A stretch of DNA of 29,548 nucleotides from positions 1-29,548 of IMG/VR virus record IMGVR_UViG_3300020052_000026. One strand, written 5' to 3'. This DNA is from a virus. How positions within the stretch are numbered: the stretch's first letter is position 1; every line of letters starts with the position of its first letter. A program made the position numbers and the translations under genes. Below the pieces are notes generated by a model. The model worked only from the letters and a program-made list of their open reading frames with translations, did not search any database and was not told the DNA's origin. Shown piece by piece: positions 6,544 to 26,725 of the stretch.

Positions 6544-8970
6544 ATGAAACATGTATTAATATTAGAAAGAAATCTTCAATCATTAACTGAACATTTTGAT
6601 GACAGATTAAAAGAGACTAATCAGTTATTTATGGGTGGATCTTTTACAGAATTTGATATAGAAAACAGAAATAAAAGATTTTATACTGCTGAAAACTTCA
6701 TACCATGTATGAATGCTTTATTAGAAAAGAAAAAAATGCTTTCTGTTATTTATGGTGAATTAGATCACCCTGATGTATTTGATATAGCAGGAAAAAATGT
6801 ATCACATACTATAGAAGAATTAACTCACAATGAACAACACAATAGAGTAGATGGTAAAATTAAACTATTAACTACACCTAATGGTATGACAGCCAGAGCT
6901 ATAATAAATGATAATTGTCCTTTATTTGTATCTTCTAGAGCAGCTGGTATTACTGAAGGAAAAAATGTACAATTAAAAGAATTATTTACTTATGATATAG
7001 TTGTAGATCCTGGTTTTGCAACATCAGTTGTTACAAACGTAAATGAAAAATATGGATTTTCTAATGATATAGATGTACCATATAGAATTTATGAAATGAA
7101 AAATGAATCAGATGTAAATAATTTATTCAATGATAATAAAAATGATAGAAAAACCGAAATGGATATAAAAGAAATGCAATTATATGTTGCTAATGAAATA
7201 GCTAAATTAGAAAATGTATTAGTTAGTAAAATAAAAGAAGGAAAAAGTACACCTTTAGAATTAGATAAATTATTAGAACAACAACAAATTTGGAATGAAG
7301 AAATGTCGAGTATTAAAAAATATTTAGATGTTTTTAAAACTAAAATAAATTATTTAGTTAAAGAAAATAAATCTTTAAAAGAATCTAATATTAAATTAAA
7401 TAATGAATTAAATGAAAATACTATTTATGCTAATCATTTAGCGTCAGGATTTAATAATATTAAAGAAAATATTAATAAAATTGATACAAAATTAGACACT
7501 TCTATTGCTTTTACTGAATCAGTAGCAAAAGAAACTGAAGTGACACAAAAGTTTGCTGAATCAATAGCAAGAGAAACAGAAGTGACACAAAAGTTTGCTG
7601 AATCAGTAGCAAAAGAAACAGAAATAGCTCAAATGTTTGCTGAATCAATAGCAAAAGAAACAGAAGTGACACAAAAGTTTGTAGAATCAGTAGCAAAAGA
7701 AACTGAAGTAGCTCAAATGTTTGCTGAATCAATAGCAAAAGAAACTAAAATAACAAGAGATTTCAGTGAATATATTGCTAATGAAAATAAAATAACAAGA
7801 GAATTTAGTGAATATATTGCTAATGAAACTATGATTGGTCAAAAATTTACTGAAATGGTTGCTAATGAATTAAACAATGAAGATATTTGGTTAAATTATG
7901 TAGCTGAAAAAGTTGATGGTATCATTAAATATATTCCGTCTATTACTGAAAATTTAAATAAAAATGTAAATGAAAGTTTAAATACACCAATAGAAAGTAT
8001 AGATAGTTATTTAGGTATTACAGAAGAACAAGAAAATTGGAATTCAATAACTAATAACATTGAAGATGAAACATTAGAAGATGAAACATTAGAAGATACT
8101 ACATTAGAAGATGAAACATTAGAAGATACTACATTAGAAGATGAAACATTAGAAGATACTACATTAGAAGATACTACATTAGAAGATGATACAAATTCAC
8201 AAATTGTTAGTATAGATAATGCTGGTCCTGATGTATCTGATATTCCTACAGATGTAAATATGAATAATACTACAGATGATAATGGTTCTTTAGAAAATTC
8301 TTTATTATCTAAATTAGTAAAAATATTAGGTTCTGATGAAACAGGTATAGTTATTGAAATAACACCAGACAATAAATTAATTATTCAAAAATCAGGTTTA
8401 GAACAACCAGAAACTATTCCATATAATATGGATGAAATTGAAGAAATTGATACAGAAAATAATATTGCGGAAACTGTAAGTAATGTATTAGAAGAAATTA
8501 AAAAACAAACAATTTTAGCTAATAAACAACCACATTTCTTTACATTCTTATCTGAAGATAATTTATCTAATTTTAAACAATTTGATAAAACACATCAAAA
8601 TGATATTATTTTAGCTATGGAAAATGCTACATATACATCAGAAAAAGAAGTATTAAATATTATTGGTAATGTATTAAATAAAAGTTCTATTTCATATGAA
8701 GAAAACTTAATTAATAATATTCCTGATAATATTAAAGAATCATGGAATTCACTTAATCATAATGAAAAAATATCATTATTAAGTGAATCTAAATATTTTC
8801 CTTTAAAATCTAAATCAGATATTAAATCATTTTGGAATACTAGACCTTTTGCAAAAAAAGTAATTAGTCCAGAAGCAATTTTAATAAAAGAAAATTATAA
8901 TTCTAATGATATTAATTTATCTGAAAATTATGTAGATGCGTTCATTAAATCTATGAATAATTTAAAATAA
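6544..8970 (+). CDS. 21: Fused prohead protease (gp21) and scaffold protein
   Basis: 808 aa, about four times T4 gp21. Residues ~28-185 are a T4 gp21-type serine protease: 'FTEFDIENRNKRFYTAENF', 'YGELDHPD' (likely catalytic His75) and 'LFVSSRAAG' (likely catalytic Ser130 or Ser131), then 'YDIVVDPGFA'. T4 gp21 cleaves scaffold and capsid proteins in the prohead. From ~205 on, the protein is scaffold-like: helical coiled coil, about nine 14-residue repeats of the type ESVAKETEVTQKFA (~325-450), an acidic LEDETLEDTT block (~507-550), and a C-terminal domain (~590-808). In T4 the protease and core proteins (gp22, gp67, gp68) are separate genes. No separate scaffold gene lies between it and gp23. 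An internal Met206 could start a scaffold-only product. Confidence 0.85.
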   Translation: MKHVLILERNLQSLTEHFDDRLKETNQLFMGGSFTEFDIENRNKRFYTAENFIPCMNALLEKKKMLSVIYGELDHPDVFDIAGKNVSHTIEELTHNEQHNRVDGKIKLLTTPNGMTARAIINDNCPLFVSSRAAGITEGKNVQLKELFTYDIVVDPGFATSVVTNVNEKYGFSNDIDVPYRIYEMKNESDVNNLFNDNKNDRKTEMDIKEMQLYVANEIAKLENVLVSKIKEGKSTPLELDKLLEQQQIWNEEMSSIKKYLDVFKTKINYLVKENKSLKESNIKLNNELNENTIYANHLASGFNNIKENINKIDTKLDTSIAFTESVAKETEVTQKFAESIARETEVTQKFAESVAKETEIAQMFAESIAKETEVTQKFVESVAKETEVAQMFAESIAKETKITRDFSEYIANENKITREFSEYIANETMIGQKFTEMVANELNNEDIWLNYVAEKVDGIIKYIPSITENLNKNVNESLNTPIESIDSYLGITEEQENWNSITNNIEDETLEDETLEDTTLEDETLEDTTLEDETLEDTTLEDTTLEDDTNSQIVSIDNAGPDVSDIPTDVNMNNTTDDNGSLENSLLSKLVKILGSDETGIVIEITPDNKLIIQKSGLEQPETIPYNMDEIEEIDTENNIAETVSNVLEEIKKQTILANKQPHFFTFLSEDNLSNFKQFDKTHQNDIILAMENATYTSEKEVLNIIGNVLNKSSISYEENLINNIPDNIKESWNSLNHNEKISLLSESKYFPLKSKSDIKSFWNTRPFAKKVISPEAILIKENYNSNDINLSENYVDAFIKSMNNLK
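7516..7893 (+). repeat. 42-bp repeats coding 14-residue coiled-coil units
   Basis: About nine in-frame 42-nt units, nearly identical at the 5' end (GAATCAGTAGCAAAAGAAAC) and more diverged toward the 3' end (EYIANENKITREFS). Fourteen residues equal two heptads, as expected of an extended coiled-coil scaffold. Confidence 0.85.
8062..8193 (+). repeat. 15-bp acidic repeats (LEDET/LEDTT)
   Basis: Tandem 15-nt units coding LEDET or LEDTT, partly arranged as 30-nt alternating pairs. They encode a highly acidic spacer inside the scaffold. Confidence 0.85.
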
Positions 8971-11732: not shown

Positions 11733-12869
11733 TTAAAATTGATCTTTTGTATGTAATTTATTCATAAATAATCTTAATGCTTCTTCTTTAATTTTATCAC
11801 CTAATTCTTTTCCTTTAAATCCTTTATTCATTAAATCTGATGATAAATTTTCAGGTAATTTAAATTCACAAAGTACTTTCATATCTTTAATATTAGAATG
11901 AAAAGAAATAATATCATTATCAGTTAAAGTAGTACTTTTTCTTTTAGAAATAAATTCAATAGGACATACTTGTGTTGAATTAAATTTAATTAAGAAAATG
12001 ATATTATTAATCATTTTAGAAGTAAACTTTAATTTAGGTAATTCTTTAGATAAAAAATTAATATTATTAAATTTAAGAATATCGGCAAACATTAAATCTA
12101 AAGATGTAATATTAGATTTAAAATTTGTATGTGCTGTAATATTTAATTTAGGTAAAATTTCAAAAATCAAATTAGTTTTAAATAAAAGAGATTTAAGTCT
12201 ATCGAAATTTTTTGTTACTTTACTTAATTCTGTAATAATTCTTTCTGGTGATACATTTAATGTTGGATTTTTTGTAATTGCATTAATAGTATCAAAATCA
12301 AAAATAAAATCAATTTTAACAGCTCTAACGATTGCACGTAATTTACGTAAGTGATCTTCATTAAATCTATCTAAAGGATGTCCTACTGTTTTAATAACAC
12401 CATTAGTTAAATCATCAATACCACCAACTAAATCAATAATTTCGTTTGTGTCAAGATTCATAAACAATGCATTAATAGTTAAATCACGTCTTTTTAAATC
12501 TTCTTCTAAAGTTACACCTAAAACAACAGTATCATCGCTATTATTTCCAGTCATAGCATTAACATCTGATCTAAATGTAGCAATCTCAATATCTTCAGAC
12601 ATTTTAGCTACAACAACACCAAATGATTCACCTTGTAATTGACAAGAAACATTTACAGATTCTAATAATTCTATTACCTGTTCTGGTAATGCATTAGTAC
12701 ATACATCAAAATCTTTAGGTACTATATTTAAAAATGAATCACGTACTGCACCACCAACTAAATATAATTCAAATCCAAATTGAAAAAATAATCTAGATAA
12801 TACTTTAATATCATTTGGCATATTAGCCAATAATAAATCTTGTGCTTGGTTTTTAGATAATATATTCAT
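11733..12869 (-). CDS. cca: CCA-adding tRNA nucleotidyltransferase
   Basis: 378 aa from the ATG at 12869, which I prefer to a TTG five codons upstream because that lies in the promoter box. Class II CCA-adding/poly(A) polymerase family: adds CCA to tRNA 3' ends from CTP and ATP without a template. Seen: 'LYLVGGAVRDSFL' (GG at 39-40, R43), metal-binding Asp53-x-Asp55, 'RRDLTINALF' (127-136), and 'RFNEDHLRKLRA' with the EDxxR base-selecting motif (170-174). The C-terminal half is diverged. The tRNAs downstream in the window all lack encoded CCA, which gives it obvious substrates. The upstream 38 bp is duplicated before the next gene. Confidence 0.9.
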   Translation of the reverse strand: MNILSKNQAQDLLLANMPNDIKVLSRLFFQFGFELYLVGGAVRDSFLNIVPKDFDVCTNALPEQVIELLESVNVSCQLQGESFGVVVAKMSEDIEIATFRSDVNAMTGNNSDDTVVLGVTLEEDLKRRDLTINALFMNLDTNEIIDLVGGIDDLTNGVIKTVGHPLDRFNEDHLRKLRAIVRAVKIDFIFDFDTINAITKNPTLNVSPERIITELSKVTKNFDRLKSLLFKTNLIFEILPKLNITAHTNFKSNITSLDLMFADILKFNNINFLSKELPKLKFTSKMINNIIFLIKFNSTQVCPIEFISKRKSTTLTDNDIISFHSNIKDMKVLCEFKLPENLSSDLMNKGFKGKELGDKIKEEALRLFMNKLHTKDQF

Positions 12870-12871
12870 GT

Positions 12872-12909
12872 TGTAAATATACAAATTTTATTTTAATAAA
12901 TACATAAAA
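12872..12909 (-). promoter_or_regulatory. Promoter-bearing 38-bp direct repeat, copy 1
   Basis: Identical over 38 bp to 13729-13766. Read on the minus strand it ends TTTGTATATTTACA, with TATATTTA (12874-12881) like the Bacteroidota -7 box TAnnTTTG. The ATG lies only 4 nt beyond the box, so a transcript started at normal spacing would have almost no leader. Confidence 0.65.
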
Positions 12910-14392: not shown

Positions 14393-14411
14393 ATTTATAT
14401 AAATAATATTG

Positions 14412-14484
14412 TAGCGATAGTCAGAATCGAACTGATCTTTTATGGGTTATGATTCCATTGTAATAGCCATTATACTATATCGCC
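14412..14484 (-). tRNA. tRNA with CAT anticodon (Ile2 or Met)
   Basis: Acceptor GGCGATA pairs with TATCGCT (G1-U72 wobble); the D arm is GTAT..GGCTATTAC; anticodon loop ATCATAA gives CAT; T loop is TTCGATT. There are mismatches at 31-39 and 49-65. The discriminator is A; CCA is not encoded. ATA codons are very common here, so a lysidine-modified Ile2 reading AUA is attractive, but Met cannot be excluded. It resembles the tRNA-Thr at 15498. The stop codon of the upstream 79-aa gene lies inside it. Confidence 0.8.
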
Positions 14485-14709
14485 ATTTATAATTTCATCA
14501 TATTCTACATCTAATATATCATTAACAAATAAATAAAAATCATTTATTTGTTTAACATTATCTGTATGTATCATTTTTTGAAATTGTTTTAATGCTTCTT
14601 GATTATTATAGAAATAAGATTTTTTTATAACACGTTTAACGTAAAAATACTTATTTGTATTATTATCTTTTAATATTTTTGTTTCTAAATCAAATATAGG
14701 ATCTTTCAT
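14470..14709 (-). CDS. Small uncharacterised protein overlapping a tRNA
   Basis: 79 aa, not recognised. It is charged, with a middle 'KRVIKKSYFYNNQEALKQFQKMI' that suggests two helices. Its start overlaps the stop of the upstream HAD gene by 4 nt. Its last 15 nt, including the TAA stop, are the first 15 nt of the CAT tRNA gene, so the final residues GDIV are dictated by the tRNA acceptor stem. Confidence 0.6.
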   Translation of the reverse strand: MKDPIFDLETKILKDNNTNKYFYVKRVIKKSYFYNNQEALKQFQKMIHTDNVKQINDFYLFVNDILDVEYDEIINGDIV

Positions 14710-15116
14710 GTGTTTTTAAATATTTTATCTATTTCTTTTATATTTTCATTTGTTAAACCTTCATATGAATATTTAACAGAAATTACATTTTTACAATATG
14801 GTAAAATATCTATTATATTATCATCAATAACACAATAATTGTCTACATTGTTATTTTGTAACCAAATTTTTATTTCTTCACCACGTTCTATTCCTAAAAC
14901 ATCGGTATAATCATAGATTTTTACATCTATACCTTGATTATAAAATATTTTTTGTAATTCTTTAATATTATAATTTACTCTCCATGTAGATGTAATTACA
15001 GGTTTTAAATTATATTTTTTACATATATTAGAATACAATAAACATGCATGTTTATTCCATTTTTTAATATTACCTGTTTGTAATACACCATCTATATCTG
15101 TAAATATAATATTCAT
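14706..15116 (-). CDS. HAD-superfamily phosphatase of the RNA-repair type
   Basis: 136 aa. HAD motifs: Asp7-x-Asp9-Gly-Val (nucleophile and acid), 'VITSTWR' (~40-46), 'ERGEEIKIWL' (~77-86) and 'YCVIDDN' (Asp98-Asp99). The 'STWR' plus 'RG-EI--WL' combination is what I know from small HAD domains of the 'Swiss army knife' RNA-repair group, which remove phosphates from nucleic-acid ends. It sits 1 nt from tRNA-Cys in the tRNA cluster, which fits an RNA substrate; that substrate is inference. Catalytic residues appear intact. Confidence 0.75.
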   Translation of the reverse strand: MNIIFTDIDGVLQTGNIKKWNKHACLLYSNICKKYNLKPVITSTWRVNYNIKELQKIFYNQGIDVKIYDYTDVLGIERGEEIKIWLQNNNVDNYCVIDDNIIDILPYCKNVISVKYSYEGLTNENIKEIDKIFKNT

Positions 15117-15117
15117 G

Positions 15118-15189
15118 AGCTGGATAAGAGATTCGAACTCCTGTATATGGTTTTGCAGACCACCACCTAAACCACTCGGCCAATCCAGC
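15118..15189 (-). tRNA. tRNA-Cys (GCA)
   Basis: Acceptor GCTGGAT/ATCCAGC with U73 (a cysteine identity base), D arm with GCCGAGTGGTTTAGG, anticodon stem GTGGT/ACCAT with loop CTGCAAA, T arm with loop TTCGAAT. CCA is not encoded (next bases are CAT). Confidence 0.88.
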
Positions 15190-15204
15190 TTGTTTTATGT
15201 TTTG

Positions 15205-15280
15205 TACTCACGATGAGACTCGAACTCATATGGACCAATTAACCTTTCTACATGATATAAGCATGAGGGTATACGCAAGC
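15205..15280 (-). tRNA. Degenerate tRNA-like gene, anticodon unclear
   Basis: It has a good T arm (ATGAG-TTCGAGT-CTCAT) and a wobble-rich acceptor (GCTTGCG/CGTGAGT, A73), but no canonical D or anticodon arm. The only clean hairpin, CATG-CTTATAT-CATG, would give anticodon TAT but sits too close to the acceptor. Its 3' half matches the neighbouring tRNA-Leu at 24 of 27 positions, so it may be a decayed or rearranged duplicate. Confidence 0.5.
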
Positions 15281-15293
15281 ATTTTATTTTTTG

Positions 15294-15373
15294 TACTCTT
15301 GATGAGATTCGAACTCATAAAGGTATAGGGTCTAAACCTATTAACTGTGCCAATTTGTATTAACCACAAGAGC
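15294..15373 (-). tRNA. tRNA-Leu (TAG)
   Basis: Acceptor GCTCTTG/CAAGAGT (G-U first pair), A73, anticodon stem ATAGG/CCTAT with loop TTTAGAC, T arm ATGAG/CTCAT. The variable region is only six bases, short for a leucine tRNA, and the D arm is unusual. CCA is not encoded. Confidence 0.78.
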
Positions 15374-15497
15374 AAGGTGTAAGACTTTCCAATATTAAGT
15401 ATCTTACATGATGGATGGTGTCTCCAAACTTCATGTTCATCAATATATAACTATCGCAACATGTTTTGATATACTATTTATAATCAATCAAATGTTG
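15374..15497 (-). ncRNA. Possible structured RNA between tRNA genes
   Basis: No open frame. On the minus strand GTAAGATACTT and AAGTCTTAC form a 9-bp stem with a two-base bulge, and a second segment (TTTGGAGACACCATCCATCA) is richer in G and C than the surroundings. No T-arm motif is present, so it is not an ordinary tRNA. Confidence 0.3.
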
Positions 15498-15569
15498 AGC
15501 TGAATAACAGAATCGAACTGTTGTTTACGGGTTACAAAGCCGTCGTAATAGCCACTATACGAATTCAGC
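15498..15569 (-). tRNA. tRNA-Thr (TGT)
   Basis: Acceptor GCTGAAT/ATTCAGC with U73, D arm GTATAGTGGCTATTAC, anticodon loop TTTGTAA, T arm AACAG-TTCGATT-CTGTT. The 31-39 pair is C-C, the same position that is mismatched in the related CAT tRNA. CCA is not encoded. Confidence 0.8.
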
Positions 15570-15837
15570 AAAATGTATATTTACTTTACAAATATACAAA
15601 GTAGGTTTAGAATAAACTTTCCTTCCTATTATAGATTCTTTTTAAAGTATTAAAATACTTAAGGCATGTTATATAATAATTCAACAAAAAGCCACTTTGT
15701 TATCCTATGATCTAAAAATAAAAATTAATTTATTTTTAGATAAAAATATCCGAATATTATGTTACTTCCTTCGCATAAGTATATTATAAATGTAATATAT
15801 ATATGTTAAAACATATTATAATATAGTGATATTTTTG
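15570..15837. other. Intergenic, tRNA-cluster promoter region
   Basis: No gene seen. It carries a minus-strand -7-like box at the left end, a small hairpin AAGTATT/AATACTT (~15646-15661), and a 13-bp inverted repeat ATCTAAAAATAAA (15710-15722) with 15729-15741 that lacks a following T tract on the minus strand. Confidence 0.5.
15589..15596 (-). promoter_or_regulatory. Bacteroidota-type -7 box for the tRNA cluster
   Basis: TATATTTG on the minus strand matches TAnnTTTG exactly and lies ~20 nt before tRNA-Thr, so it could drive the tRNA-HAD run downstream. Confidence 0.6.
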
Positions 15838-15911
15838 TAGGAATAGTAAGACTCGAACTTACGACCTTCGTGGTATCAGCACGACGCTCTAACCAACTGA
15901 GCTATATTCCT
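15838..15911 (-). tRNA. tRNA-Ile (GAT)
   Basis: Fully canonical: acceptor AGGAATA/TATTCCT, A73, D arm GCTCAGTTGGTTAGAGC, anticodon stem TCGTG/CACGA with loop CTGATAC, T arm GTAAG/CTTAC with loop TTCGAGT. CCA is not encoded. Confidence 0.95.
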
Positions 15912-15913
15912 AT

Positions 15914-15942
15914 AAAAGATTAAATTAATTTAATCTTTTTTT
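15914..15942. terminator. Palindromic hairpin between tRNA genes
   Basis: Perfect 26-nt palindrome AAAAGATTAAATT with its complement; T7 follows on the plus strand, only T4 on the minus strand. It could stop antisense transcription or help processing of the tRNA transcript. Confidence 0.45.
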
Positions 15943-15994
15943 CTACTAATGGATCACACATCATATCACTGTTCATAAACTAGTTTAATTAGAG

Positions 15995-16073
15995 TAGCCC
16001 GACCGAGACTTGAACTCGGACTCCGTAGAACAGCATTTTAAGTGCTGCGTGTCTCCCATTCCACCACCGGGCC
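15995..16073 (-). tRNA. tRNA-Leu (TAA)
   Basis: Acceptor GGCCCGG/TCGGGCT with terminal wobbles, D arm GTGGAATGGGAGACAC, anticodon stem CAGCA/TGCTG with loop CTTAAAA, an 11-base variable region, T arm CCGAG/CTCGG with loop TTCAAGT. It reads UUA, by far the commonest leucine codon in these genes. CCA is not encoded. Confidence 0.92.
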
Positions 16074-23861: not shown

Positions 23862-23896
23862 AAAAAAATCTCAATACAATTAAGTATTGAGATTTT
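23862..23896 (-). terminator. Intrinsic terminator after tmRNA
   Basis: A 13-bp stem AAAATCTCAATAC/GTATTGAGATTTT with a 6-nt loop and T7 on the minus strand, one base beyond the mature tmRNA 3' end. Confidence 0.85.
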
Positions 23897-23897
23897 G

Positions 23898-24295
23898 TGG
23901 AACATGTGGGATTCGAACCCACGTTTCAATAAACACCTAATAAATTTTCTACATGTTTAGTTTTAATTTCTATAAAAACAAAATATTTAATTTTCTAATT
24001 AACAAATAATATATTTTATTCTAAATATATAAAATCTTTTTGTAATTTTCAGAGTAAATTACCAACTTTAAACCGTTTTTATCTTTTCAGATCGACTTAA
24101 GCTGCCATAAGTACGTTATCTTCGGTAGAGATAACTTCATTCGAAAATGAACTTGGAGCTAAGGCTTCTGCAATTTTTGAGAAAGCAGAGTTTTTTGTGT
24201 TTGCATTTATTGTTTTGTATTCTTTTTTAAGTGATTTATACTTGTCACTACATGCTTATTTTTAAATAACTTAATGATCAACTCCAAAATGCCCC
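23898..24295 (-). ncRNA. ssrA: tmRNA (ssrA) with a 35-codon tag
   Basis: ~398 nt. Acceptor GGGGCAT pairs with ATGTTCC and includes G3-U70, the alanine identity pair; T arm GTGGG-TTCGAAT-CCCAC; A73, CCA not encoded. The tag frame (24204 down to TAA at 24097) starts GCAAACACAAAAAACTCTGC, coding ANTKNSAF, clearly related to the E. coli ANDENYA start, and ends VLMAA, a ClpX-type hydrophobic-AA end. The tag is 35 residues, long compared with the usual ~8-15. tmRNA rescues stalled ribosomes by trans-translation. It lies 48 nt downstream of clpP. The tag start is chosen by homology. Confidence 0.9.
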
Positions 24296-24343
24296 ATATT
24301 TTGTTATATTACAATTATATATATTTAATTTTAAATATAAAAA

Positions 24344-24934
24344 TTAATTCATTTTTATTTTTATTTCATCTATAGAACCATATTTAATACTTTCATCACT
24401 TTTCATCCAATAATCACGTTCACAATCTTTTTTAACTTTAGAAACAGATTGTCCAGTATTTTCAGCAATAATATGTATTAAATCTTTTTTAATAGATTGT
24501 AATTCTTTATTATGAATATCTATATCAGTAGCTTGTGAAAAATCTATTCCAGATAATGGTTGGTGTAACATCATTTTACTATTAGGTAAAGCGTAACGAT
24601 GGCCTTTTTCTCCAGCAATTGCTAATATATATGCCATAGATGCCGCTAATCCCATTACACATGTATAAACTGGTGCATCTATCATACGTATAGTGTCATA
24701 AATAGCCAATCCAGAATAAACATCTCCACCTGGACTATTAATATATAACCAAATTGGTTCAGAACTAATAGACGTTAAATATATTAATTGTGCGTTAATA
24801 GTATTTGCTATAAAATCATTAATACCTTCACCTAAAAAGATAATTCTATCTTTCATTAATCTATCAAATACTGAAATAATTGAAGAATTTTCGTTTGATT
24901 CTTCAATTATCATTGGTGTAAAACTTTTAATCAT
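24344..24934 (-). CDS. clpP: ClpP-family serine protease subunit
   Basis: 196 aa, normal ClpP length. Tetradecameric ClpP degrades proteins unfolded by ClpX or ClpA. Seen: 'RIIFLGEGINDFIANTINAQ', 'WLYINSPGGDVYSGLAIYDT', catalytic Ser99 in 'CVMGLAASMA', His124 in 'MMLHQPLSG' and Asp174 in 'CERDYWMKSDE', ending 'YGSIDEIKIKMN'. The triad is complete with typical spacing. 'GLAASMA' replaces the usual 'GQAASMG'. In phages ClpP-like proteins can also be prohead proteases, but here gp21 already fills that role, and the tmRNA beside it suggests degradation of tagged proteins. No Clp ATPase is in the window. Confidence 0.9.
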   Translation of the reverse strand: MIKSFTPMIIEESNENSSIISVFDRLMKDRIIFLGEGINDFIANTINAQLIYLTSISSEPIWLYINSPGGDVYSGLAIYDTIRMIDAPVYTCVMGLAASMAYILAIAGEKGHRYALPNSKMMLHQPLSGIDFSQATDIDIHNKELQSIKKDLIHIIAENTGQSVSKVKKDCERDYWMKSDESIKYGSIDEIKIKMN

Positions 24935-24987
24935 ATACTTTGTTTTAATTTATTATTTATATTATTAAAACAAATTAAAGTTTAAAA

Positions 24988-25040: not shown

Positions 25041-25697
25041 TTACATTACAAGTCTGGCTGGTGTAAAACCAAATTTATTATATAAATTATTTTGTTCCAT
25101 TTTTAATGTAGTCCATGAAAAAATTATAGATGGAATTGATTCAACAGTAAATACTTCTTGATTCGCAATAGTTGATATATGTTCAATAACAACAACACCA
25201 CCATTAACTTCAGGTGTATTTACACCATAAGATTTAATATCATCAATATATACCAATTTACCAATTTCGAAACCTTGTTTACCTGGTCGAATTACATCAG
25301 AATCTTCATCAGATTCATAATCTTCATCAGAATCATAATCTTCATCAGAATCTTCATCAGAATCATAATCTTCATCAAAACCATAATCATAATCTTCATC
25401 AGAATCATAGTCTTCATCAGAATCATAATCTTCATTAACCACATTTCTAACAGCGTCTAAACCGTTATTATATGAATTAATAACATCATCTAATGATTCT
25501 TTTGTATTAGATTGTTCTTGTTGTGGTGCACTTAAAAAGTCAATATTAAATACTTGTACTTTACCATATAAAGATGTCAAATTTAATTCATTAATAATAT
25601 CATTAACTGAACATAAAGCATTATCTGTTTGATAAATTAAAACATCATCAACTTTAATATTAAATTCTTTTTCTGATTTTTTATATACTTTAATCAT
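25041..25697 (-). CDS. Uncharacterised protein with DSDEDY repeats
   Basis: 218 aa, not recognised. An N-terminal domain (~1-85, 'FNIKVDDVLIYQTDNALCSV') is joined by a highly acidic linker of DYDSDE repeats (~88-132) to a C-terminal domain (~135-218, 'GKLVYIDDIKSYGVNTPEVN', 'TVESIPSIIFSWTTLK'). Linker repeats code from 18-nt units. A TATATTTG promoter lies 32 nt upstream; a divergent late-type promoter serves the next acidic-repeat gene. The acidic linker may mimic DNA or act as a spacer. Confidence 0.7.
   Translation of the reverse strand: MIKVYKKSEKEFNIKVDDVLIYQTDNALCSVNDIINELNLTSLYGKVQVFNIDFLSAPQQEQSNTKESLDDVINSYNNGLDAVRNVVNEDYDSDEDYDSDEDYDYGFDEDYDSDEDSDEDYDSDEDYESDEDSDVIRPGKQGFEIGKLVYIDDIKSYGVNTPEVNGGVVVIEHISTIANQEVFTVESIPSIIFSWTTLKMEQNNLYNKFGFTPARLVM
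25300..25437 (-). repeat. 18-bp acidic repeats (DYDSDE)
   Basis: Tandem units of TCTTCATCAGAATCATAA on the plus strand, partly shortened, coding an Asp/Glu/Ser/Tyr linker on the minus strand. Confidence 0.85.
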
Positions 25698-26131: not shown

Positions 26132-26172
26132 AAAAAAAAAAGAATGATTTTAAAATCATTCTTTTTTTTTTT
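26131..26172. terminator. Bidirectional terminator between convergent genes
   Basis: AGAATGATTTT/AAAATCATTCT stem with A11 and T11 tracts serves the plus-strand acidic gene and the minus-strand Tpt1 gene. Confidence 0.88.
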
Positions 26173-26725
26173 ACATATATTTTATAGATAGATAATGTTT
26201 ATCTACATTATCTGTTAAATATACATTATTTTCAGATAAATATATTATATTATTTTTTAAATATTCTATATGATTTAAAATAATTAAAACTGGTTCACTT
26301 TTAGTTTTATTATTTTTTTGATTAGCTCTTTTCTTAGCTAATTCTATATCACTAGTCCAATGTACATGATTTCTAGATCCAGAAATAATTTTATCGTTTA
26401 AAATTATTTCTGCTGTTTTTTTATCTGTACCATGATATAATATAATATTAGAATTTAATGTTTTTAATTGTATAAATTCTTTTTTTATAGCTATACCATT
26501 AGAATGTCCTTGTGTAGCTCTTATTTTATTTTTAAAATTATCAAATATAAATCTTTTTTTATTATTAGTATTAACTATATATTCTAGATCTAACAAAGAT
26601 ATAGATAAATGATTTAATATATCTGATACTTTAATCCAACCTTTATCATCAATATTAAGACCTTCTGTATCATGTCTTAAAATTTTTGATAAATGTCTTG
26701 ATTTTCTTTCTAATATTTTGTTCAT
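26171..26725 (-). CDS. kptA: RNA 2'-phosphotransferase (Tpt1/KptA)
   Basis: 184 aa, the family's normal size. Tpt1/KptA moves an internal RNA 2'-phosphate to NAD+, giving ADP-ribose 1'',2''-cyclic phosphate and nicotinamide. Seen: 'KSRHLSKILRHDTEGLNIDD' then 'KGWIKVSDIL' (the 'S--LS--LRH-P---GL--D--GW--V--LL' motif; Arg17-His18), 'IRATQGHS' (Arg69, His74), 'ILYHGT' (98-100), and 'SGSRNHVHWTSD' (Arg118, His120, His122). All key residues seem present. Usual His-Leu-Ser is His-Trp-Thr here. Two TATATTTG boxes precede it, the nearer 4 nt from the ATG. Confidence 0.9.
   Translation of the reverse strand: MNKILERKSRHLSKILRHDTEGLNIDDKGWIKVSDILNHLSISLLDLEYIVNTNNKKRFIFDNFKNKIRATQGHSNGIAIKKEFIQLKTLNSNIILYHGTDKKTAEIILNDKIISGSRNHVHWTSDIELAKKRANQKNNKTKSEPVLIILNHIEYLKNNIIYLSENNVYLTDNVDKHYLSIKYM

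Follow-up and report, generated by a model that had tools for sequence, protein, structure and literature searches.

A phage clpP gene beside a tmRNA gene with a long tag: a probable trans-translation and proteolysis unit in a relative of huge phages

The tmRNA frees jammed ribosomes and tags the unfinished proteins that they carry, and these proteins are normally degraded by the ClpP barrel. Genes for both molecules lie side by side in the viral DNA analyzed here (hereafter the window, the whole stretch of 29,548 nucleotides), which raises the question of whether the phage encodes tag and protease as one unit or whether the two genes are merely neighbors. Each is known separately in phages, as the sequence-only reading of this DNA had stated, and the coordinates agree with its description of a tmRNA gene 48 nt downstream of clpP on the same strand, with terminator-like hairpins on either side; both genes are intact. 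The relevant features are the following:

6544 to 8970: T4-type prohead protease, separate from clpP
11733 to 12884, minus strand: tRNA nucleotidyltransferase, CCA-adding type (phrog_2244 1e-49, PF01743 8.5e-34)
23865 to 23896, minus strand: terminator-like hairpin directly 3' of the tmRNA, with a 13-bp stem and a T run
23898 to 24295, minus strand: tmRNA (ssrA) gene, matching RF00023 over its full length, with G3-U70, A73, T arm and ACTAAACATGTAGA
24097 to 24204, minus strand: tag reading frame within the tmRNA, with resume codon GCA at 24204, 35 codons (ANTKNSAFSKIAEALAPSSFSNEVISTEDNVLMAA) and stop TAA
24296 to 24343, minus strand: A/T-rich gap of 48 nt between clpP and the tmRNA (from the sequence and the terminator scan)
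24344 to 24934, minus strand: clpP, 196 aa, catalytic type (Ser99, His124, Asp174; PF00574 E=1.3e-66)
24935 to 24987, minus strand: clpP leader, where a promoter of the unit's own would have to lie, with TATAAATA 27 nt before the start codon
24988 to 25017, no strand assigned: terminator-like hairpin upstream of clpP, with T/A runs on both sides (terminator scan)

Three terminator-like sites were found in the window against 0.3 expected in shuffles, and the scan detected none in the 48-nt gap between the two genes; the hairpin upstream of clpP could act bidirectionally. The leader element TATAAATA resembles a T4 late promoter, a weak resemblance given its 34 copies on both strands of the window, and it was not counted as a promoter at -27 because it is too common in such A/T-rich DNA; no Bacteroidetes-type promoter (TAnnTTTG) was found ahead of clpP. 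The same arrangement is present on a contig from a second metagenome that is 99.93% identical. We also would like to mention that a gene for an acidic Asp/Glu/Ser-repeat protein without family match (25041-25697, minus strand) lies directly upstream of the clpP unit.

Membership of the window protein in the ClpP family (PF00574, S14) is beyond doubt. The triad Ser99/His124/Asp174 is in place when the protein is aligned with phage ClpPs, and solved bacterial ClpPs match it with a phmmer E of 3e-53. The NCBIfam model PRK00277 scores 237 bits, just missing its cut-off of 249, versus 90 bits for the head-maturation model. Assignment as a head-maturation protease was ruled out, since ClpP models score far higher and the window carries a separate prohead protease.

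The covariance-model check of the tmRNA gave a divided answer. A sensitive Rfam search aligned all positions of RF00023 (1-374 of 374) with an E-value of 8e-17, and the score of 46.3 bits, which carries a 51-bit composition correction for A/T-rich DNA, falls just below the gathering score of 47 bits. For this reason the default Rfam search misses the gene; ARAGORN misses it too. The tmRNAs of LR756504, Lak and LR756500 exceed the gathering score. The acceptor stem (GGGGCAU/AUGUUCC) contains the G3-U70 wobble and A73, the marks of alanine charging, and the T arm (GTGGG-TTCGAAT-CCCAC), the ACTAAACATGTAGA segment and the AAUAAAU-GCA resume region, the last of which is aligned to RF00023, are canonical. 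The fold z-score is -2.4. CCA is not encoded, and the tmRNA would therefore need a CCA-adding enzyme such as the tRNA nucleotidyltransferase listed above. Other RNA-care genes of the window are a Tpt1/KptA RNA 2'-phosphotransferase (26171-26725, minus strand) and five tRNAs (14411-16073). Blast comparison of the tmRNA DNA and the tags with annotated phages returned chance or tRNA matches only.

The portal, prohead protease and major capsid proteins of the window are T4-like. Its nearest capsid proteins, at 37-39% identity, belong to huge phages of 635-735 kb (LR756502, LR745206, LR756501 and LR756504), with Lak phages as more distant capsid relatives; a single-protein scan with the capsid protein gave no matches. 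From these relationships, the window is part of the genome of a relative of huge phages, and genes missing from the window are therefore not judged absent from the phage. Bacteroidota is the likely host phylum, as Prevotella, Tenacibaculum, Chryseobacterium and Flavobacterium are the main hosts of the named capsid relatives.

The tag frame, which follows from how the resume region aligns to the Rfam model, has a G+C content of 38% versus 22% for the window and ends in a hydrophobic, Ala-rich C-terminus (LMAA-stop). With 35 aa the tag reaches the top of the range of 8-35 aa stated in a review (PMC8012679); another source (PMC11915505) names 10 aa as the most common length. Bacteroidota tags are of the GENNYALAA type and about 9-10 aa long (27 tags from 28 tmRNAs; 30 host genomes searched). 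As the last eight residues of the window tag, EDNVLMAA, resemble host ENNYALAA, the tag looks like a host-like end preceded by a 27-residue extension. No diverged homologue of it was found, and it has only a loose [IL]..[EG].[LF]AP-like motif in common with the tags of LR756504 (DNVNSFEQSILNELFAPVEMAVAA) and L206 (GENPFYILAGLAPVEEAEVALAA), a likeness that may be due to chance. The "phage-chosen degron" of the sequence-only reading is in keeping with this phage-specific tag of 35 aa.

If the two genes act together, their linkage may be expected to recur. A tmRNA scan of viral contigs revealed phages with clpP directly upstream of the tmRNA, and a search with that ClpP as query yielded 435 relatives, of which 80 loci, from large IMG/VR phages, were fetched (the adjacency clade). 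A same-strand tmRNA lies downstream of clpP in 52 of these 80 loci and on the other strand in none; the gap measures 78-1956 nt, and about half of the pairs are without an intervening ORF of at least 30 aa. The controls gave 0/80 for tmRNAs beside bacterial clpP (flanks up to 4 kb), 1/80, in opposite orientation, for another, distant set of phage ClpPs, and 1/80, at 5.4 kb, for ClpPs of a sister clade. The adjacency of clpP and ssrA is thus non-random. In the ClpP tree a fully supported branch separates the window from the adjacency clade, the window's own branch being long and its exact place uncertain; the pair therefore occurs in two ClpP lineages, having either formed twice or been kept from an ancestor. 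Long tags and ClpP adjacency were also associated among random viral tmRNAs (Fisher p 0.024), a value not relied on because the adjacent cases form one clade and ARAGORN shortens some tags.

The adjacency clade also provides information on the tag itself. Its 30 distinct tags are 25-26 aa long, and most of them contain [SD]ENFL as a core and GE[LV]A.A at the end; the SENFL core is absent from the window tag. Across 34 distinct tag ORFs, pN/pS in frame is 0.41 (25 aa) and 0.56 (26 aa) versus 0.96-1.17 in shifted frames, and third codon positions differ most often. The peptide is therefore the conserved element, and the tag of this clade is under protein-level selection. The RNA is also constrained: in 17 tmRNAs of the clade, compensatory changes occur in the acceptor stem, the T stem and one more hairpin, 96.7% of cells are paired with 53 double changes (0/500 shuffles as high), and G3-U70 is invariant (17/17).

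The closest complete relatives present a different arrangement, and the adjacency recorded in 52 of 80 loci of the second clade is absent from them: the tmRNA of LR756504, whose tag has 24 aa, is separated by 11 kb from one of the phage's clpP copies, and in Lak phages, whose tag has 10 aa, the tmRNA is 56-62 kb away from clpP. No tmRNA was seen directly downstream of other clpP copies in huge phages. In LR756502 and LR745206, which encode two or three ClpPs alongside SmpB, no tmRNA was found; their tmRNA may be very divergent, split or permuted, or SmpB may occur there without one. A candidate at 68075 of LR756502 proved on examination not to be a tmRNA, and a pattern search in LR756502, LR745206 and LR756501 performed no better than its control. 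LR756501 (735 kb) has SmpB and a 33-aa tag (GDYKMNAEDMMSIPTSLTGKVATESFVEDLVLA) but no ClpP; long tags thus do not depend on a ClpP of the phage's own. In this phage a group I intron match (RF00028, 96 bits) directly follows the T-arm region of the tmRNA (L060:1932-1360, minus strand), which suggests an intron-split phage tmRNA; its 3' exon was not located. Another phage tmRNA (L224:5393-5002, minus strand), with a 24-aa tag (GKNTHIFNHYPMVEVSQNQYAIAA), lies about 1 kb from clpP on the opposite strand.

Trans-translation and proteolysis would further require SmpB and a Clp ATPase, and here the description of the locus as self-contained is not supported: neither was identified in the 29.5-kb window among the subset of ORFs run against family libraries, and in the related complete huge phages with both, tmRNA and clpP are far apart. 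SmpB is present in 7 of 12 huge-phage records, including LR756501, LR756502, LR756504, LR745206 and Lak phages. Among the SmpB-bearing records, LR756504 and Lak have a ClpX above the NCBIfam cut-off and the others ClpA/ClpB-type ATPases. Two adjacency phages, G003 (306 kb) and G004 (368 kb), likewise encode SmpB and a ClpA/ClpB-type ATPase. Since tmRNA, SmpB, ClpP and a Clp ATPase occur in the same records, some phages hold all four. The ClpX of Lak-A1 (L307:405-2609, minus strand) has the zinc-binding domain and an insert of about 300 aa in its AAA+ domain.

We consider it fairly probable that the clpP-ssrA pair is a phage trans-translation and proteolysis unit with its own phage-specific tag, whose bearers the phage ClpP would degrade. 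The alanine-charged phage tmRNA would enter, with SmpB, ribosomes stalled on broken mRNAs and append its long tag to the stalled products, after which a Clp ATPase would drive the ClpP ring to degrade the tagged proteins. As one expression unit, the pair would make tag and protease available at the same time, when many ribosomes stall because of mRNA decay during infection. Co-transcription, the source of SmpB and ATPase (the phage itself in complete relatives) and the fate of tagged proteins as substrates of the phage ClpP are what we infer here. The joint role proposed in the sequence-only reading is likely, because the adjacency recurs in a distinct phage ClpP clade and is missing beside bacterial clpP in the loci sampled. 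Redirected host ClpX would be only one of several fitting partners.

A bolder version, which we advance tentatively and regard as possible rather than probable, is that the long phage degron is read by phage ClpP, ATPase and SmpB and not by the host protease; proteins from stalled ribosomes would then pass to the phage's own protease, and clpP-ssrA would be the core of an orthogonal quality-control channel in at least two phage ClpP lineages. Clearly less credence than to a joint unit is due to the explanation that the genes are independent neighbors, the tmRNA serving rescue and ClpP acting on host or defense proteins, their adjacency being inherited order or chance. The main observations against tight coupling are also those that favor independent neighbors, namely the separation of the two genes in the closest complete relatives and the 735-kb phage with a tmRNA and no ClpP; in roughly half of the adjacency-clade loci small genes lie between the two, and host proteins have been proposed as targets of jumbo-phage ClpP (PMC7824862). 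However, order and strand do not vary among the 52 loci of this diverse clade, and the window, from a separate ClpP branch, agrees with them; bacteria have no such arrangement in the 80 loci sampled.

It is unlikely that the long tag is read by another protease (host ClpXP, FtsH or a Lon-like enzyme), with ClpP being incidental or acting on untagged substrates. The Mesoplasma florum tag with mf-Lon is a case of a tag with a different protease partner (PMC9097571), the 33-aa tag without ClpP would fit, and the closeness of EDNVLMAA to ENNYALAA means that host ClpX could read the window tag; nevertheless, the protease gene linked to ssrA in both the adjacency clade and the window is clpP. Finally, it is very improbable that the phage tmRNA acts as a decoy, titrating SmpB or alanine charging and so shutting down host trans-translation. 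The TLD-only tmRNA-like RNA of mycobacteriophage DS6A, an inhibitor of tmRNA, offers a parallel (PMC4131195, PMC11915505), but the window encodes a complete molecule whose tag frame is open, the adjacency-clade tag evolves as a protein, and relatives supply SmpB too.

Should the trans-translation and proteolysis unit be real, big phages would run ribosome rescue with their own tag and protease and not merely a borrowed system, which bears on the reason why phages carry tmRNAs at all. Their tags would make up a set of natural long degrons under selection; they lead to a prediction about the Clp machine that recognizes them, and orthogonal degradation tags might be drawn from them. It is also evident that some phage tmRNAs escape a standard tmRNA finder. 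No mention of clpP-ssrA linkage or of long phage tags was found in the open-licence literature searched, as far as its accessible text extends, which is not proof of priority; within that literature, a conserved clpP-ssrA pair with long selected tags appears undescribed.

Several known systems come close to the one described here. Huge phages with tmRNA and SmpB, to which the window phage is related by capsid protein and ClpP, have been reported (Al-Shayeb et al., 2020; PMC7162821). ClpP does not appear under that name in the main text of the study, which called tmRNAs with ARAGORN, a program that misses that of the window. Phage-borne tmRNA genes, as in the window, are recorded for mycobacteriophages Bxz1 and Wildcat and for Bacillus phage G (PMC4131195). 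The ClpP, ClpA and ClpX of jumbo phages were described by Iyer et al. (2021; PMC7824862), with a like phage ClpP barrel and Clp ATPases, and tmRNA is without mention there; ClpA is near-core in aquatic moraphages according to a 2025 study (PMC12619734). The tmRNA of Bacteroidota hosts shares with that of the window the tRNA-like end, the resume region and an Ala-Ala C-terminus of the tag, but its tag has 9-10 instead of 35 aa and it does not adjoin clpP in the bacterial loci examined. The ssrA tag of M. florum is long. This tag is read by a dedicated protease, mf-Lon, and is orthogonal to the E. coli system (PMC9097571); the M. florum system differs from the phage pair in being cellular, in its Lon partner without ClpP and in its unrelated tag sequence.
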